Shown here: positions 32,200 to 37,507 of the stretch, piece by piece
Layout of the letters: every line of letters begins with the position of its first letter
How positions within the stretch are numbered: position 1 is the first letter of the stretch
NCBI GenBank assembly: GCA_031081715.1
Contig: JAVHMA010000004.1
Coordinates: forward strand, 1-64,000
DNA from: Armatimonadota bacterium
GTDB lineage: Bacteria; Sysuimicrobiota; Sysuimicrobiia; Sysuimicrobiales; Humicultoraceae
Length of the DNA stretch: 64,000 nt
Direction: 5' to 3'
Program-made: the position numbers and the translations under genes
Notes under the pieces: model-generated
Told to the model about the DNA's origin: nothing
The model's database searches: none
Seen by the model: the letters and a program-made list of their open reading frames with translations, nothing else

Positions 32200-32493
32200 G
32201 CGCACACCCGCCCGGCAACGCTTGCAAAGAAGCGAAAGTCGTCAAACGGTTCTGGAGCACAGCGCCCGGTCCCTCCGTCGCGGTCTGATTCTGATGGGAT
32301 CAGAGCCGGCTTCAGCATCGACATACCCTTCGACTTCACTAGCGATGAAGTCTATGGGGCTGCTAGGCAGGAACTTCACCAGAGGTCGTCGAACCAGCGC
32401 GGCAACTTCAGCGCTACCATACCCGACCCGCGCTTCGTCCGACCAGCCGCCGTCGCACATCTACTCTCGTCCGAGCCTGAGGAGGGAGCATCC
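32200..32493. other. AT-richer intergenic region with two perfect inverted repeats
   Basis: About 290 bp with visibly lower GC than the flanks. It holds TCTGAT-GGG-ATCAGA (32290-32304) and GACTTCA-CTAGCGA-TGAAGTC (32332-32352). Short reading frames exist on both strands but none has a ribosome site or recognisable sequence. It most likely holds promoters and operator sites for the divergent small genes, the second repeat lying about 140 bp before the secreted-peptide start. Confidence 0.5.
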
Positions 32494-32670
32494 GTGACGA
32501 AAGTCATCGCCGCTGTTCTGGCTGCCATGCTGCTCGGTGCCGCGTGGGCGCCGGCAGCGCTCGCGCCCACCGCCGGTCACGGCGACGGCGGCGCGGTCGG
32601 CATGCCCGGGCACGGCGACGGGGTCGTGCTCCGGACCGCCGGTCACGGTGACGGCGGCGCAGTGGGCTAG
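32494..32670 (+). CDS. Small secreted repeat peptide, candidate signalling pro-peptide
   Basis: A 58-residue ORF starting at GTG with GGAGGGAG 5 bp upstream. Residues 1-24 form a clear signal peptide (Lys, then VIAAVLAAMLLGAAW, ending ALA). The mature part is a repeat: TAGHGDGGAVG occurs twice (codons 26-36 and the last 11 codons), with a third degenerate PGHGDGVV between them. The two 33-nt copies (32569-32601 and 32635-32667) differ at three bases, all synonymous, implying selection on the peptide. It sits 57 bp before an XRE-TPR regulator, the arrangement expected of an RRNPP-type pheromone precursor. A His/Asp-rich metal-binding peptide is the alternative. Confidence 0.65.
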   Translation: MTKVIAAVLAAMLLGAAWAPAALAPTAGHGDGGAVGMPGHGDGVVLRTAGHGDGGAVG

Positions 32671-32727
32671 GCCCTCGTCTTCTGTCACAACCAAGGTGGC
32701 GCGCTCGCGCCGAGCGGAGGGAGTCGT

Positions 32728-34020
32728 GTGACCCTGGGGCAGAAGATCCGCGCTGCGCGAAAGAGCCGTGGCCTGACGCAGCGGCAGCTCGCCGGCGGGG
32801 ATCTCTCAGAGAGCTTCGTCAGCATGCTCGAGCACGACAAGGTCCGGCCTTCGCTGGAAACCCTGCGGATTTTGGCGAGCCGGCTGCACGTGGACCCCGC
32901 CGATCTGGTCGCGACCGAGCCGACGCCCCGGCGCCACGTCGGCGTGAAGCTCGAGCTCGGCCGGGCGCTGCTGCGCCAGCACCGCTTCACCGAGGCGATG
33001 GAGGCGTTCCAGGAGGCCGAGCGGGCGTGCGCGCCCGACTCGCCGCCGGAGACCATGTTCCGCGTTCGCGTGGGATTGGGCCAGGCCCTTACCGGACTGG
33101 GCCAGTATGAACTCGCGGAGCGTCACCTGGCCGAGGCGCAGACGCTCGCGACGTCGCTGGGGCGGCCGGATCTGGTTGCGCGGGTGGCGAGTGCCACCGG
33201 GTATCTCTCCCTCCGGCGGCGCGACCTTCCGGCCGCCCGCGACGCCTTCGCCCGGGGCCTGGACGCCGTGCGGGCCGCCAGCCCGGTCGATGTCGAGTTC
33301 GAGGGCGCGTTGCTCAACAACCTGGGTCGCACCTACTCGGACCTGGGCCTGCCGGCCCAGGCGCTCGAGTGCCTGAGGGCCGCGCTGGAGCGGATCGCGC
33401 CGCTCGGCGACCTGGTCACCCTGGGCCTGCTCCACTTCAACCTGGGCGTCACCCACGAGCGCCAGCAGGCGTTCGAGCAGGCCCGCGCGCACCTCGAGAA
33501 GGCCGCGGCGCTGTTCGAGGCACAGGAGAGCCTGCGCCTGCTCGGTACCGTGAAGCGGAGCATCGGCATCCTGCTGATCAACCGCGGGCAGCCCGCCGAA
33601 GGCGCGGAGGTCCTGCAGCAGAGCCTGGCGCTGGCCAACCAGACCGCGGATGACCTGGGTCGGGCCCAGACCCTGACCGAGCTCGCGCGCGCCTCGCTCA
33701 TGCACGGCGACCTGCCGGCAGCGCGAGCGCAGGCCGAGGAGGCCATCCGGTTGTCTGTCAGGTTGCAGGACCCGGCCGAGGCGGCGCGCGCCGAGTCAGT
33801 GATGGCCGCGGTCTGTCACCGTGAGGGCCGCGTCGAGGAGGCCGAGCACCGCTACGCCTACGCGCTCCGCGAGTTCGAGCGCGTGCGCGCGGCGGACGAG
33901 GTCGCGCGGGTGAGCCGCGAGTACGCGTTCCTGCTCCTGGAACGGGGCGAGGAGGCAGTGGCCGCGCGGCTGTTCGCAAAGGCGTTCCGCGCGCAGGACG
34001 CCGCGCTCGCCGCCCGCTGA
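32728..34020 (+). CDS. XRE-family HTH regulator with TPR domain (RRNPP-like)
   Basis: A 430-residue protein. Residues 1-65 are an XRE helix-turn-helix (LGQKIRAARKSRGLTQRQLAGGDLSESFVSMLEHDKVRPSLETLRILASRL). The rest is a run of about eight to nine TPR units (for example LLNNLGRTYSDLGLPAQALECLRAAL, GLLHFNLGVTHERQQAFEQARAHLEKAA, RAESVMAAVCHREGRVEEAEHRY). This is the layout of PlcR/NprR/Rap-type peptide receptors and of some actinobacterial regulators. GTG 32728 follows GGAGGGAG at 4 bp. Adjacent upstream is the secreted repeat peptide, its likely partner. Confidence 0.9.
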   Translation: MTLGQKIRAARKSRGLTQRQLAGGDLSESFVSMLEHDKVRPSLETLRILASRLHVDPADLVATEPTPRRHVGVKLELGRALLRQHRFTEAMEAFQEAERACAPDSPPETMFRVRVGLGQALTGLGQYELAERHLAEAQTLATSLGRPDLVARVASATGYLSLRRRDLPAARDAFARGLDAVRAASPVDVEFEGALLNNLGRTYSDLGLPAQALECLRAALERIAPLGDLVTLGLLHFNLGVTHERQQAFEQARAHLEKAAALFEAQESLRLLGTVKRSIGILLINRGQPAEGAEVLQQSLALANQTADDLGRAQTLTELARASLMHGDLPAARAQAEEAIRLSVRLQDPAEAARAESVMAAVCHREGRVEEAEHRYAYALREFERVRAADEVARVSREYAFLLLERGEEAVAARLFAKAFRAQDAALAAR

Positions 34021-34088: not shown

Positions 34089-36539
34089 GTGGCACTGCGC
34101 GACGAGATCCGCCTGGCCGTCGCGCTTTACGGCGGGGTGTCGCTCGCCGTCTACGAGGCCGGGGTCGCCCACGAACTCTACCGCGCGGTGCGCGGCGCGG
34201 GCGCATACGGCAAGGCGCTGGGAGACGGTCGCCGGGTGGTCGTGGACGTGGTCGCCGGCACCTCGGCCGGGGGTATCACGGGCGGCATGCTGGCGGCCGC
34301 GCTCGCGACCGGCGCCGACCTGACCGCGCTGCGGCGGGTCTGGTTGGACCGGGGAGACCTGGCGGCGCTCGTCCATCCGCCCGACGGCGCGGTCCCATCG
34401 TTGCTCGACGGTGACCGGCTCCGCGCCGCGATCGCCGAGGCCCTGCCCGCCGCGGGCCGTGCGCCGCTGGTGGATGACCTGGTCGCGTACCTGACGCTCA
34501 CCGACCTGGCGGGCCGGCCCGTCTGGTATCTGGACAGTCTGGACCGACCGATCCTTGCCACCAGCGGTCGGGACCACGTGGTCTTCGACCGCGACGCGCT
34601 GAGAACCGCGCCAGGCGAGGACGGGAGGCTGGCCCGCGCGCGACTGGCGGACGCGATGCGGGCGACCGCGGCGTTCCCGGGCGCGTTCGCCCCGCACCGC
34701 CTGGACGGTCGGTGGTACGCCGACGGCGGAATACTGGACAACAAGCCGCTGGGGCTCGCGCTGCGCGGCATCCGCGATCGGCACAGCGCCGTCCGCGAAC
34801 ACCGCATGCTCGTCTTCGTCGAGCCGCACCCGGCGAGCGGGCCCGCGGCGCTGGATGCGGCGGTCGTCCCGCACCCGCTGGAGACGCTGGCGGCGGCGCT
34901 GGCGCTCGCGCTCGACGACTCGGTGCTCGAGGACCTGCACACCGTCGACGACGTCAACATGCGGATCGCCTGGTATCAGGCGTTCCGCGAGCTCTTCGAC
35001 CTGTTCGTCGCGGACCGGGAGCGGCGGGGAGACGACGTGCTCGCCGACCCCGTCCTGGGCCCGCCGCTGCACGACCTGGCCGTGGAGGTACGCTTCTGTC
35101 TGGCGATGCTTGGGGGACGGTCCGCAGCCTGGGCGGCCTGGCAGCGCCTTGCGCCGCGGCTGCGGGCGGAGGGGGTCGATCCCGCCCGGCTAGCCCGCCG
35201 GCTGGTCGAGGACGCGGCGGCCGACGCGGACCTGCACCTGCGCTGGTTTGGCTGGATCGTCCGCGAGCGCATCGACCCGGTGCTCGACGCCGCGGAGGCC
35301 TCCGCGGATCTCGCCGAGGCCGCGCGCCGGTTCACGGGCGCAGACGGCGGCGATGCAGGGCTCAAGGATTGGATCGCCGACGAGTGCATTGCCCCGCTGC
35401 GCGCCGCCTGGCGCGCGTCCGGGCTGCCCGAGGCGGTGGTGGCCTGGGTCACCGACCCGCCGGGCGATCTCGCTGCCGGCGCCGAGGCGCTCATCGCCGA
35501 CGCGCTCCGCTTGGCCGATGCCGCCGGCCTGCGCGCCACGGTGGCGCGCTGTCGCGGTGCGCTCGAGCGCGCCGCAGCCGAACCCGTGGCGGCGCGTGCG
35601 TTCGTCGCCTTCGAGACCTTCCGGCGTTACGACGCCTACTCTCTGGTGGTGGAGGCGGCCGGCGACCTCGCCGGAAAGCGCCGCGTGGACGTGGTCCGGG
35701 TGAGCCCGCGCGACGCCGACAACCTCAGCCTGATCGGCCGCACCGGGCCGCCCGCGGACCAGGCCGGGGAGAAGCTGGCCGGTGAGGTGCTCGGCCACTT
35801 CGGCGGGTTTCTGGAGCGGGGATGGCGCCGCAACGACTACATCTGGGGCCGGCTCGACGCCGCGGAGATCTTGTTGCGCGCGATCGCGACGACGCCACCG
35901 GCCCCCCCGGAGGGGTCCATTGCCACCCTCGTCACGGATGCGCGCCGCGAGATCCTGATCGAAGAGCATCGCGCGTACAACGCCGAGCTCGGTCGTGCCG
36001 ACGCCCCGGTGCCAGATCCCATCGCGCACCCCCACCGCAACCGGCCGCTGATCGGTCGCGGCCGCGAGCGGTTCACCGACCTGCCGCCTGCACGTCGGGC
36101 GTACGCGTTGGGCTACCTGTTGCAGACCGTGCCCCGGATGCTGGAGGCGCCTGGCTCAATACCCGCGACGGCCGCGGTGCTGGGCGCGCTGCGCGCGGTC
36201 GGGACGGTGCTGCGCGTGCTCGCCGGGCCGCTCTTGCTGCTGGCCATGCCCGCGCAGACGCGCTGGAGCCGGATCGTTTGGGCGTTGGCCACGTGGGGCG
36301 CGCTGGCTGCGGCGCTCACGCTGGCCGCTGTCTACGCGGCCGACCGCGTCGGCGTGACCGCGACTGCCGCCTTGGGGGCCGTCGTGCTCGGAGCGCTCGC
36401 GCTCGCCTTCGTGCTGGGCGCGGCTGCGGGCCGGCCGGGCCGCCCCTGGTTCATCGCGCTCTTCGCGGCCGGCGCCGCCTCGGGCGCGGCGTTGCGGCCC
36501 TTCATCGAGCGGCTCTGGGTCTGGCTGCGGGTACCGTAG
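34089..36539 (+). CDS. Patatin-like phospholipase with C-terminal membrane helices
   Basis: An 816-residue protein. The N-terminal third is a patatin domain: oxyanion motif YGGVSLAVYEAGVAHELY, nucleophile elbow VAGTSAGGITGG (Ser in GxSxG) and catalytic Asp in WYADGGILDNKPL. A long helical middle (residues 260-660, DUF3376-like in layout) follows. About three to four hydrophobic segments near the C-terminus (LLLLAMPAQ, ALATWGALAAALTLAAVYA, ALGAVVLGALALAFVLGAAA) would anchor it in the membrane. It would hydrolyse acyl lipids. It lies between two XRE-TPR regulators; the start GTG is 11 bp from GGAGGA. Confidence 0.88.
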   Translation: MALRDEIRLAVALYGGVSLAVYEAGVAHELYRAVRGAGAYGKALGDGRRVVVDVVAGTSAGGITGGMLAAALATGADLTALRRVWLDRGDLAALVHPPDGAVPSLLDGDRLRAAIAEALPAAGRAPLVDDLVAYLTLTDLAGRPVWYLDSLDRPILATSGRDHVVFDRDALRTAPGEDGRLARARLADAMRATAAFPGAFAPHRLDGRWYADGGILDNKPLGLALRGIRDRHSAVREHRMLVFVEPHPASGPAALDAAVVPHPLETLAAALALALDDSVLEDLHTVDDVNMRIAWYQAFRELFDLFVADRERRGDDVLADPVLGPPLHDLAVEVRFCLAMLGGRSAAWAAWQRLAPRLRAEGVDPARLARRLVEDAAADADLHLRWFGWIVRERIDPVLDAAEASADLAEAARRFTGADGGDAGLKDWIADECIAPLRAAWRASGLPEAVVAWVTDPPGDLAAGAEALIADALRLADAAGLRATVARCRGALERAAAEPVAARAFVAFETFRRYDAYSLVVEAAGDLAGKRRVDVVRVSPRDADNLSLIGRTGPPADQAGEKLAGEVLGHFGGFLERGWRRNDYIWGRLDAAEILLRAIATTPPAPPEGSIATLVTDARREILIEEHRAYNAELGRADAPVPDPIAHPHRNRPLIGRGRERFTDLPPARRAYALGYLLQTVPRMLEAPGSIPATAAVLGALRAVGTVLRVLAGPLLLLAMPAQTRWSRIVWALATWGALAAALTLAAVYAADRVGVTATAALGAVVLGALALAFVLGAAAGRPGRPWFIALFAAGAASGAALRPFIERLWVWLRVP

Positions 36540-36547
36540 CCCGTCGG

Positions 36548-37507
36548 TCAGAGGAGGACAAGCGCGTCGAGCGGCCAGCGCGGCGGTTCGGTGCCATCCG
36601 GCGCCTCGCCCCGGTCGCTCTGGTCGAGGAAGGCGCGGACGCGCGCCACCTCGGCGCGCGCCTGAGGATCGGCGTGGCCGTCGACGACGGCCGCGGCCTC
36701 GGCCAGGCGCGCGGCCCCCTCCTCGGCGCGGCGCTCGCGCGCCGCCAGCCAGGCTAGCCGTACGAGCCCTCGCCCGGCCACGCCGGGTTCGCGCGCGCGG
36801 CGGGCCGCGCTCACCGCGGATTGGAGCCGGCGCCGGGCCTGCCGCGTGTCGCCGCCGTCCAGCGCCGCCGCGCCGAGTCCGAGCAGCGCGCGCGCTACCA
36901 GGTCGGCGTGCCGGCTGGCTTTCCGCGCGTGGCCGAGCGCGCGCCGGAAAGCCGCCTGAGCCTCCACCGGCTCGCCGCGCCGCAGGGCCAGCCAGCCGGT
37001 GGCCAAATCCGCGCGCATGCGCGCGCGCAAACCGAGCGGGCCGGCTAGCTCCGTGGCGTCCCGCACCGCGGCTGAGGCGGCGTCCAGCCGTCCGGCGACG
37101 ATCTCGAGCTCGGCCAGCGCCAGGGCGGCGTCGAGCTCGTGGTGCGCGGATTGCGCCTGGTGGGCGAGTTCGCGCGCGATGGCGAGCGCGGCCCGTTCGG
37201 TCTCGCCGCCGGGCCCTCCGCGCTCGCGCACCCACGCCACGAGCCCCGCGGCGGTGGCCAGGCGCTGGTCGGTGGCGTCGCCGGCGATGGTGGACAGCGC
37301 GAGATGCAGGCGCCGGGCCAGAAAGCGCAGGGTGTCCAGCGAGGGCTCGGCGTAGCCGCCCTCGAGCTGGCTGATGAAGCTCTTGGTGTACTCGGCGCCC
37401 GCCAGTTCGGCCTGGGTGAGGTCCAGGTCGCGGCGGCGCCGCCGCAGACGCGCGCCCACCGGCGGATCGCCCGGGCGCGCGTGTCGCCTCGAGGGATGCC
37501 GGCCCAT
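36548..37507 (-). CDS. XRE-family HTH regulator with TPR-like helical repeats
   Basis: A 319-residue protein. Residues 15-70 form an XRE HTH (GARLRRRRRDLDLTQAELAG, TKSFISQLEGGYAEPSLDTLRFLARRL), followed by Ala/Leu/Arg-rich TPR-like helix pairs to the C-terminus. It resembles the regulator at 32728-34020 in layout but is shorter and diverged. It converges on the patatin gene with an 8-bp gap and reads away from the threonine operon. It may respond to the same or another peptide, or act as a stress regulator of the lipase. Confidence 0.85.
   Translation of the reverse strand: MGRHPSRRHARPGDPPVGARLRRRRRDLDLTQAELAGAEYTKSFISQLEGGYAEPSLDTLRFLARRLHLALSTIAGDATDQRLATAAGLVAWVRERGGPGGETERAALAIARELAHQAQSAHHELDAALALAELEIVAGRLDAASAAVRDATELAGPLGLRARMRADLATGWLALRRGEPVEAQAAFRRALGHARKASRHADLVARALLGLGAAALDGGDTRQARRRLQSAVSAARRAREPGVAGRGLVRLAWLAARERRAEEGAARLAEAAAVVDGHADPQARAEVARVRAFLDQSDRGEAPDGTEPPRWPLDALVLL

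Follow-up and report, generated by a model that had tools for sequence, protein, structure and literature searches.

A short gene with an export signal and internal repeats, lying immediately ahead of an HTH-TPR regulator, raises the question of whether peptide signalling of the RRNPP type extends to bacteria far from the Firmicutes. The pair lies in a 64,000-nucleotide stretch of DNA, hereafter the window, taken from a 2.98 Mb Sysuimicrobiota genome; contigs titled Armatimonadetes bacterium CSP1-3 and Terrabacteria group bacterium ANGP1 are among its close relatives, within the same family and order. Sysuimicrobiota is the present name of candidate phylum CSP1-3, for which a chemoautotrophic enrichment has been reported in a paper whose main text makes no mention of quorum sensing (PMC11604079). 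A preliminary description had read the locus as a peptide-pheromone cassette, and this reading is largely supported by clade-wide pairing, by conservation of the peptide and by the generality of the repeats, which together suggest a pheromone function. The peptide-receptor gene pair is real and phylum-wide, and an RRNPP-like working is its most likely explanation.

The gene pair and its conservation

The precursor ORF starts with GTG, encodes 58 residues (VTKVIAAVLAAMLLGAAWAPAALAPTAGHGDGGAVGMPGHGDGVVLRTAGHGDGGAVG) and follows a ribosome site, AGGAGGG, at 32480-32486; its charged N-terminus runs into a long hydrophobic stretch. The ribosome site and signal peptide described earlier were confirmed by direct reading. 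The same holds for the two copies of TAGHGDGGAVG, the second of which ends the protein, and for a degenerate third copy, which reads PGHGDG. Base by base, the two full copies differ at three positions, all synonymous as had been stated; by our computation, the 9-mer would survive three random substitutions intact in about 1.7% of cases. The signal-peptidase cleavage site is less clear here than in paralogues of the AXA type. Starting with GTG 57 bp past the end of the precursor, the regulator is 430 aa long, both figures agreeing with those first given. The features of the locus are collected in Table 1.

Table 1. Features of the peptide-receptor locus, in positions of the window
Feature	Position	Strand	Basis or remark
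Candidate operator, inverted half-sites GACTTCA-N7-TGAAGTC	32332..32352	+	Direct reading
Conserved cis element GGAACTTCA-N9-GTCGAA upstream of peptide gene	32370..32393	+	One match per genome
Further AACTTCA half-site	32403..32410	+	Direct reading
Putative pheromone precursor gene, signal peptide and repeated GHGDGGAVG	32494..32670	+	Direct reading and conservation
Peptide copy 1, GHGDGGAVG	32575..32601	+	Preceded by Ala
Degenerate copy, GHGDG	32608..32622	+	Preceded by Pro
Peptide copy 2, GHGDGGAVG	32641..32667	+	C-terminal end of protein; preceded by Ala
HTH-TPR receptor-like regulator; HTH_3 residues 7-60, nine TPR helix pairs 67-429	32728..34020	+	Pfam, AlphaFold, Foldseek
Patatin-like phospholipase (DUF3376), candidate output gene	34089..36539	+	Pfam, position

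We sampled 43 Sysuimicrobiota genomes and examined the loci of homologous regulators, which are present in 35 of them. A same-strand ORF of 38-141 codons, with a signal peptide as judged by hydrophobicity and charge and usually with a strong ribosome site, recurs upstream of these regulators. Within the receptor clade of the window it was found in 15/15 members with readable upstream DNA, as the preliminary description had expected of homologues; the contig of the sixteenth regulator ends 23 bp upstream. The expected conservation among relatives was likewise borne out, since the peptide is kept and dN is below dS for most pairs of orthologous precursors (dN/dS of about 0.2-0.5, with a few near 1). 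The pairing of regulator and peptide ORF thus stands for the window clade but not for several more distant receptor clades of the phylum, near which no peptide gene was detected. Under a fixed criterion 36 of 79 receptors were scored positive, one of them (L137) probably falsely, its upstream match having been set aside as a probable membrane protein; the controls gave 0/79 in antisense, 0/73 downstream, 2/1580 in shuffles and 1/51 among other genes of the window. Because orthologues occupy the same position in four genomes of the sister genus and the controls are near zero, the precursor ORF of the window is more than a chance ORF. With relaxed criteria and inspection by eye we count 44 pairs in 31 of the 43 genomes, paralogues included, and up to three pairs in one genome.

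Several loci deserve mention in their own right. The window's genome holds a second pair (L118, G000:C36:21116-22309), whose precursor, MKTLLRL...RQVADGDFPGGG, lies 185 bp upstream of its HTH-TPR gene. At L036 (regulator at 1501) the upstream region lacks a signal-peptide ORF, yet the clade motif AAAAGCAAAGGAATACATTAC is present; an in-frame ...IAGDVGPGGG, directly followed by a stop codon and devoid of a clear signal sequence, may reflect decay, a frameshift or an assembly error. In one receptor subclade of a single family (L085, L090, L091, L133 and L035), the slot that elsewhere holds the peptide gene encodes a conserved protein, exported and about 145-155 residues long, that looks cupredoxin-like by eye. 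The window also contains a shorter, convergent HTH-TPR paralogue (36548-37507, minus strand), for which no peptide ORF was detected; the sister genus has retained it, again next to the genes for threonine synthase and aspartokinase. Viral contigs gave matches at the level of the HTH only, and a phage origin is therefore without support.

Repeated peptides, receptor clades and the upstream element

The repeat-type precursor proposed from this single gene turns out to be general: a short peptide is present two to five times in 19 precursors, and in a frequent layout one copy directly follows the signal sequence and an identical one closes the protein. The peptides seen include AGDSLPGGS, AGDIGPGS, AGDVGPGDS, AGDTWPGGG, GDDPPDSD, GQDGPGQ and APELPGEN among others, and in the sister genus AGHGDGELL(N/S)GGW is found in 2-4 tandem copies. 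When the first copy was compared with the last in 18 precursors, 82 of 182 codons proved to differ with no effect on the amino acid, a figure that is not an unbiased rate because the compared segments were picked for identical residues. At L104, 10 of 27 bases have changed between the copies and serine codons have switched between the TCN and AGY sets; silent divergence of this kind is not expected by chance. One copy at L028 has Pro changed to Ser. Ala precedes 49 of the 63 copies, and many first copies start at an AXA signal-peptidase site (VFA↓GHGGGELL, AFA↓GRGD, VGA↓GDSLPGGS). The window precursor and many paralogues end on an exact repeat copy, which may be the mature product. In a tree of 83 receptors, none of them a known RRNPP receptor, the GHGDG, GHGGGELL and GxGDxDxFG peptides fall into one well-supported clade each, and other peptide types likewise tend to track the receptor clade.

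Each of eight family genomes contains a single match to the pattern GGAA(C/G)TTCA-N6-11-GTCGAA, always before the orthologous peptide gene and, in the window, 101 to 124 bp ahead of the precursor start codon; the reversed pattern had no match in these eight genomes, and the element itself had none in two genomes lacking a receptor of the window type. As the pattern was derived from these loci, its presence there is by construction and the finding is its uniqueness. Inverted AACTTCA/TGAAGTT half-sites flank the element, and most other members of the family have similar ones in the corresponding position; another receptor clade has a separate upstream motif of its own. A wider regulon was not found in the window's genome, where the pattern with up to three mismatches matched 13 times against 11 for the control. 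To judge from the sequence, the locus-specific element and its half-sites would fit autoregulation of the operon.

Turning to the neighbours, the slot after the receptor is filled in the sister genus by a patatin of a different subtype, and muramoyl-amidase genes also adjoin the pair there. Five genomes outside the genus of the window and its sister carry a LuxR-type HTH gene after or overlapping the receptor; at L145, L146, L147, L151 and L152 this small protein is encoded directly 3' of the receptor, in some cases with overlap. Judged by position only, the patatin and LuxR-type genes are likely direct outputs. It is also worth recording that the window's genome (G000) encodes about 42 SBP_bac_5 oligopeptide-binding proteins in 3 Mb, a notably large uptake repertoire.

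Receptor, envelope and competing explanations

The regulator matches HTH_3 and TPR_12 in Pfam, and its AlphaFold model (mean pLDDT 92) raises the number of TPR units from the eight or so first estimated to nine. The best Foldseek E-values for this model are to LGN, a eukaryotic protein, which makes the structural match a generic TPR one; Rap with its pheromone (phage phi3T, TMq about 0.64) and PlcR with PapR7 appear further down the list, and the sequence match to PlcR is confined to its HTH. The polar A-helix residues R112, Q119, N198, R201, N238, R277, Q314, E318, R321 and R354 are invariant, most of them at the standard ligand-facing positions 2, 5, 6 and 9, and in the model the concave TPR face carries a stripe of invariant polar residues, Asn198 and Asn238 among them. 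These two residues may tentatively be likened to Asn227 of RapF, which is described as strictly conserved across RNPP superfamily receptors and anchors the peptide backbone (PMC3601957). Asn198 is found in 16/16 receptors of the window clade and in 6/7 of one other clade; several further clades with peptide genes lack it. When peptide and receptor were folded as one tethered chain through the stop codon, with TAG read as Q, the peptide was disordered (pLDDT 21-28) and did not dock onto the receptor. This outcome, the generic fold match, the Asn198 missing from several clades, the receptor clades that have no nearby peptide gene and the additional step that secretion past an outer membrane would require all speak against an RRNPP-like explanation.

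On balance, we put at about three in four the probability that an RRNPP-like exported peptide is read by a cytoplasmic HTH-TPR receptor controlling its own operon. The precursor would be exported by Sec and cut by signal peptidase and by a second protease acting after Ala, yielding identical short Gly/Asp/His-rich peptides, in the window GHGDGGAVG of some 726 Da. Oligopeptide permeases would carry these into the cytoplasm, where binding to the concave face of the neighbouring receptor's TPR domain would alter how that receptor binds DNA at the AACTTCA-type half-sites upstream of the precursor. The operon, comprising precursor, receptor and a third gene (the patatin in the window, one for a LuxR-type regulator in other genera), would in this manner be autoregulated.

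The route outside the cell depends on the envelope. LpxC and Omp85 were present in 8/8 genomes of the phylum tested, and for this reason Sysuimicrobiota looks LPS-diderm by gene content. The "different, high-GC lineage" of the preliminary description was right as to a non-Firmicutes host but too narrow, and the case is more unusual than was then assumed. In such an envelope an exported peptide would enter the periplasm, and getting it across the outer membrane needs an extra step beyond Sec. Whether the peptide leaves the cell is what separates quorum sensing from a private export-import sensor, in which the same pair would handle a peptide trimmed in the periplasm and re-imported by the same cell, and would therefore report the state of export, envelope or permeases and not population density. 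This explanation, which overlaps the main one, is possible and we hold it tentatively: the LPS-diderm gene content, a Sec signal that alone reaches only the periplasm, the many peptide permeases of the genome and the patatin and muramoyl-amidase genes beside the pair in the sister genus favour it, whereas small hydrophilic peptides could pass porins and the divergent peptide codes of the receptor lineages resemble inter-cell or inter-paralogue specificity.

Repeated cores also occur in RiPP precursors, and the small gene might encode an effector that is secreted, whether bacteriocin-like, a RiPP or an envelope peptide, and that the HTH-TPR protein controls through another ligand; a TPR protein of RiPP clusters in NCBIfam gave a weak match, far below cut-off, that could hint at this. 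Such an effector seems unlikely given the shortness of the peptides, their mostly acidic or near-neutral character and their differences from one receptor clade to another, and given that the gene precedes the receptor, apparently within a single operon; moreover, no maturation enzyme was recognised among the neighbours of the window gene or of the other loci inspected, a minority of which were scanned with Pfam. A translated leader (attenuator) or chance ORF, suggested by the short distance to the next gene, is largely refuted by the conservation of the precursor and was discarded as very improbable for an ORF that has a signal peptide, a ribosome site, purifying selection and identical repeats and has no counterpart among the antisense controls and hardly any among the shuffled ones.

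Relation to known systems and significance

The pair shares with RRNPP systems a C-terminal TPR domain joined to an N-terminal HTH (Pfam, AlphaFold) in a presumably cytoplasmic receptor, and a short precursor with a predicted export signal immediately beside it; it departs from their host range, Bacillota or their mobile elements, in belonging to Sysuimicrobiota. This architecture is that of PlcR-PapR and NprR-NprX of Bacillus, whereas in the present pair the precursor gene comes first, the receptor is distant in sequence and contains nine TPRs, the peptides are Gly/Asp/His-rich and the host, outside Bacillota, appears LPS-diderm. With Rap-Phr, the pair has in common the TPR fold and, as in Phr105 of phage phi105 with its two identical ERPVGT copies (PMC11343458), an internal and a C-terminal copy of one peptide with a spacer between them; Rap, however, has no HTH for binding DNA, and Phr is a product of Bacillus hosts. 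In Paenibacillus polymyxa, AloR-AloP likewise combines HTH-TPR receptors, many paralogues with private peptides and a Gly/His-rich mature peptide, SHGRGG for AloP13 (PMC7425212), but its peptide gene lies downstream of the receptor instead of upstream and its host is one of the Bacillota. The 21 candidate RRNPP subfamilies of RRNPP_detector were defined by the same anatomy, a TPR receptor adjoining a Sec-tagged small ORF, in complete Firmicutes and viral genomes only (PMC10075063), so Sysuimicrobiota fell outside that survey; another survey treats the family in Firmicutes (PMC9765709). Sysuimicrobiota lies outside the described RRNPP range, mainly Firmicutes and their mobile elements, and we found no such system for this phylum or for LPS-diderms in the open-access literature. 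The two full-length matches that came from outside the phylum were not preceded by a peptide ORF.

A more ambitious picture, on which we are evenly divided, is that of an LPS-diderm phylum with a large, possibly independently evolved HTH-TPR repertoire and private peptides (about 20 codes, at most three pairs found per genome), in which signal peptidase sets many N-termini and selection keeps the internal duplicate identical. If the RRNPP-like explanation is true, this would be the first signalling system proposed for Sysuimicrobiota, as far as the open-access literature shows, and it would provide some twenty natural peptide-receptor codes for the study of specificity. It would also pose the problem of how peptides of this kind get past an outer membrane, and phylum-wide pairs in outer-membrane bacteria would mean either an older principle or one that evolved twice.
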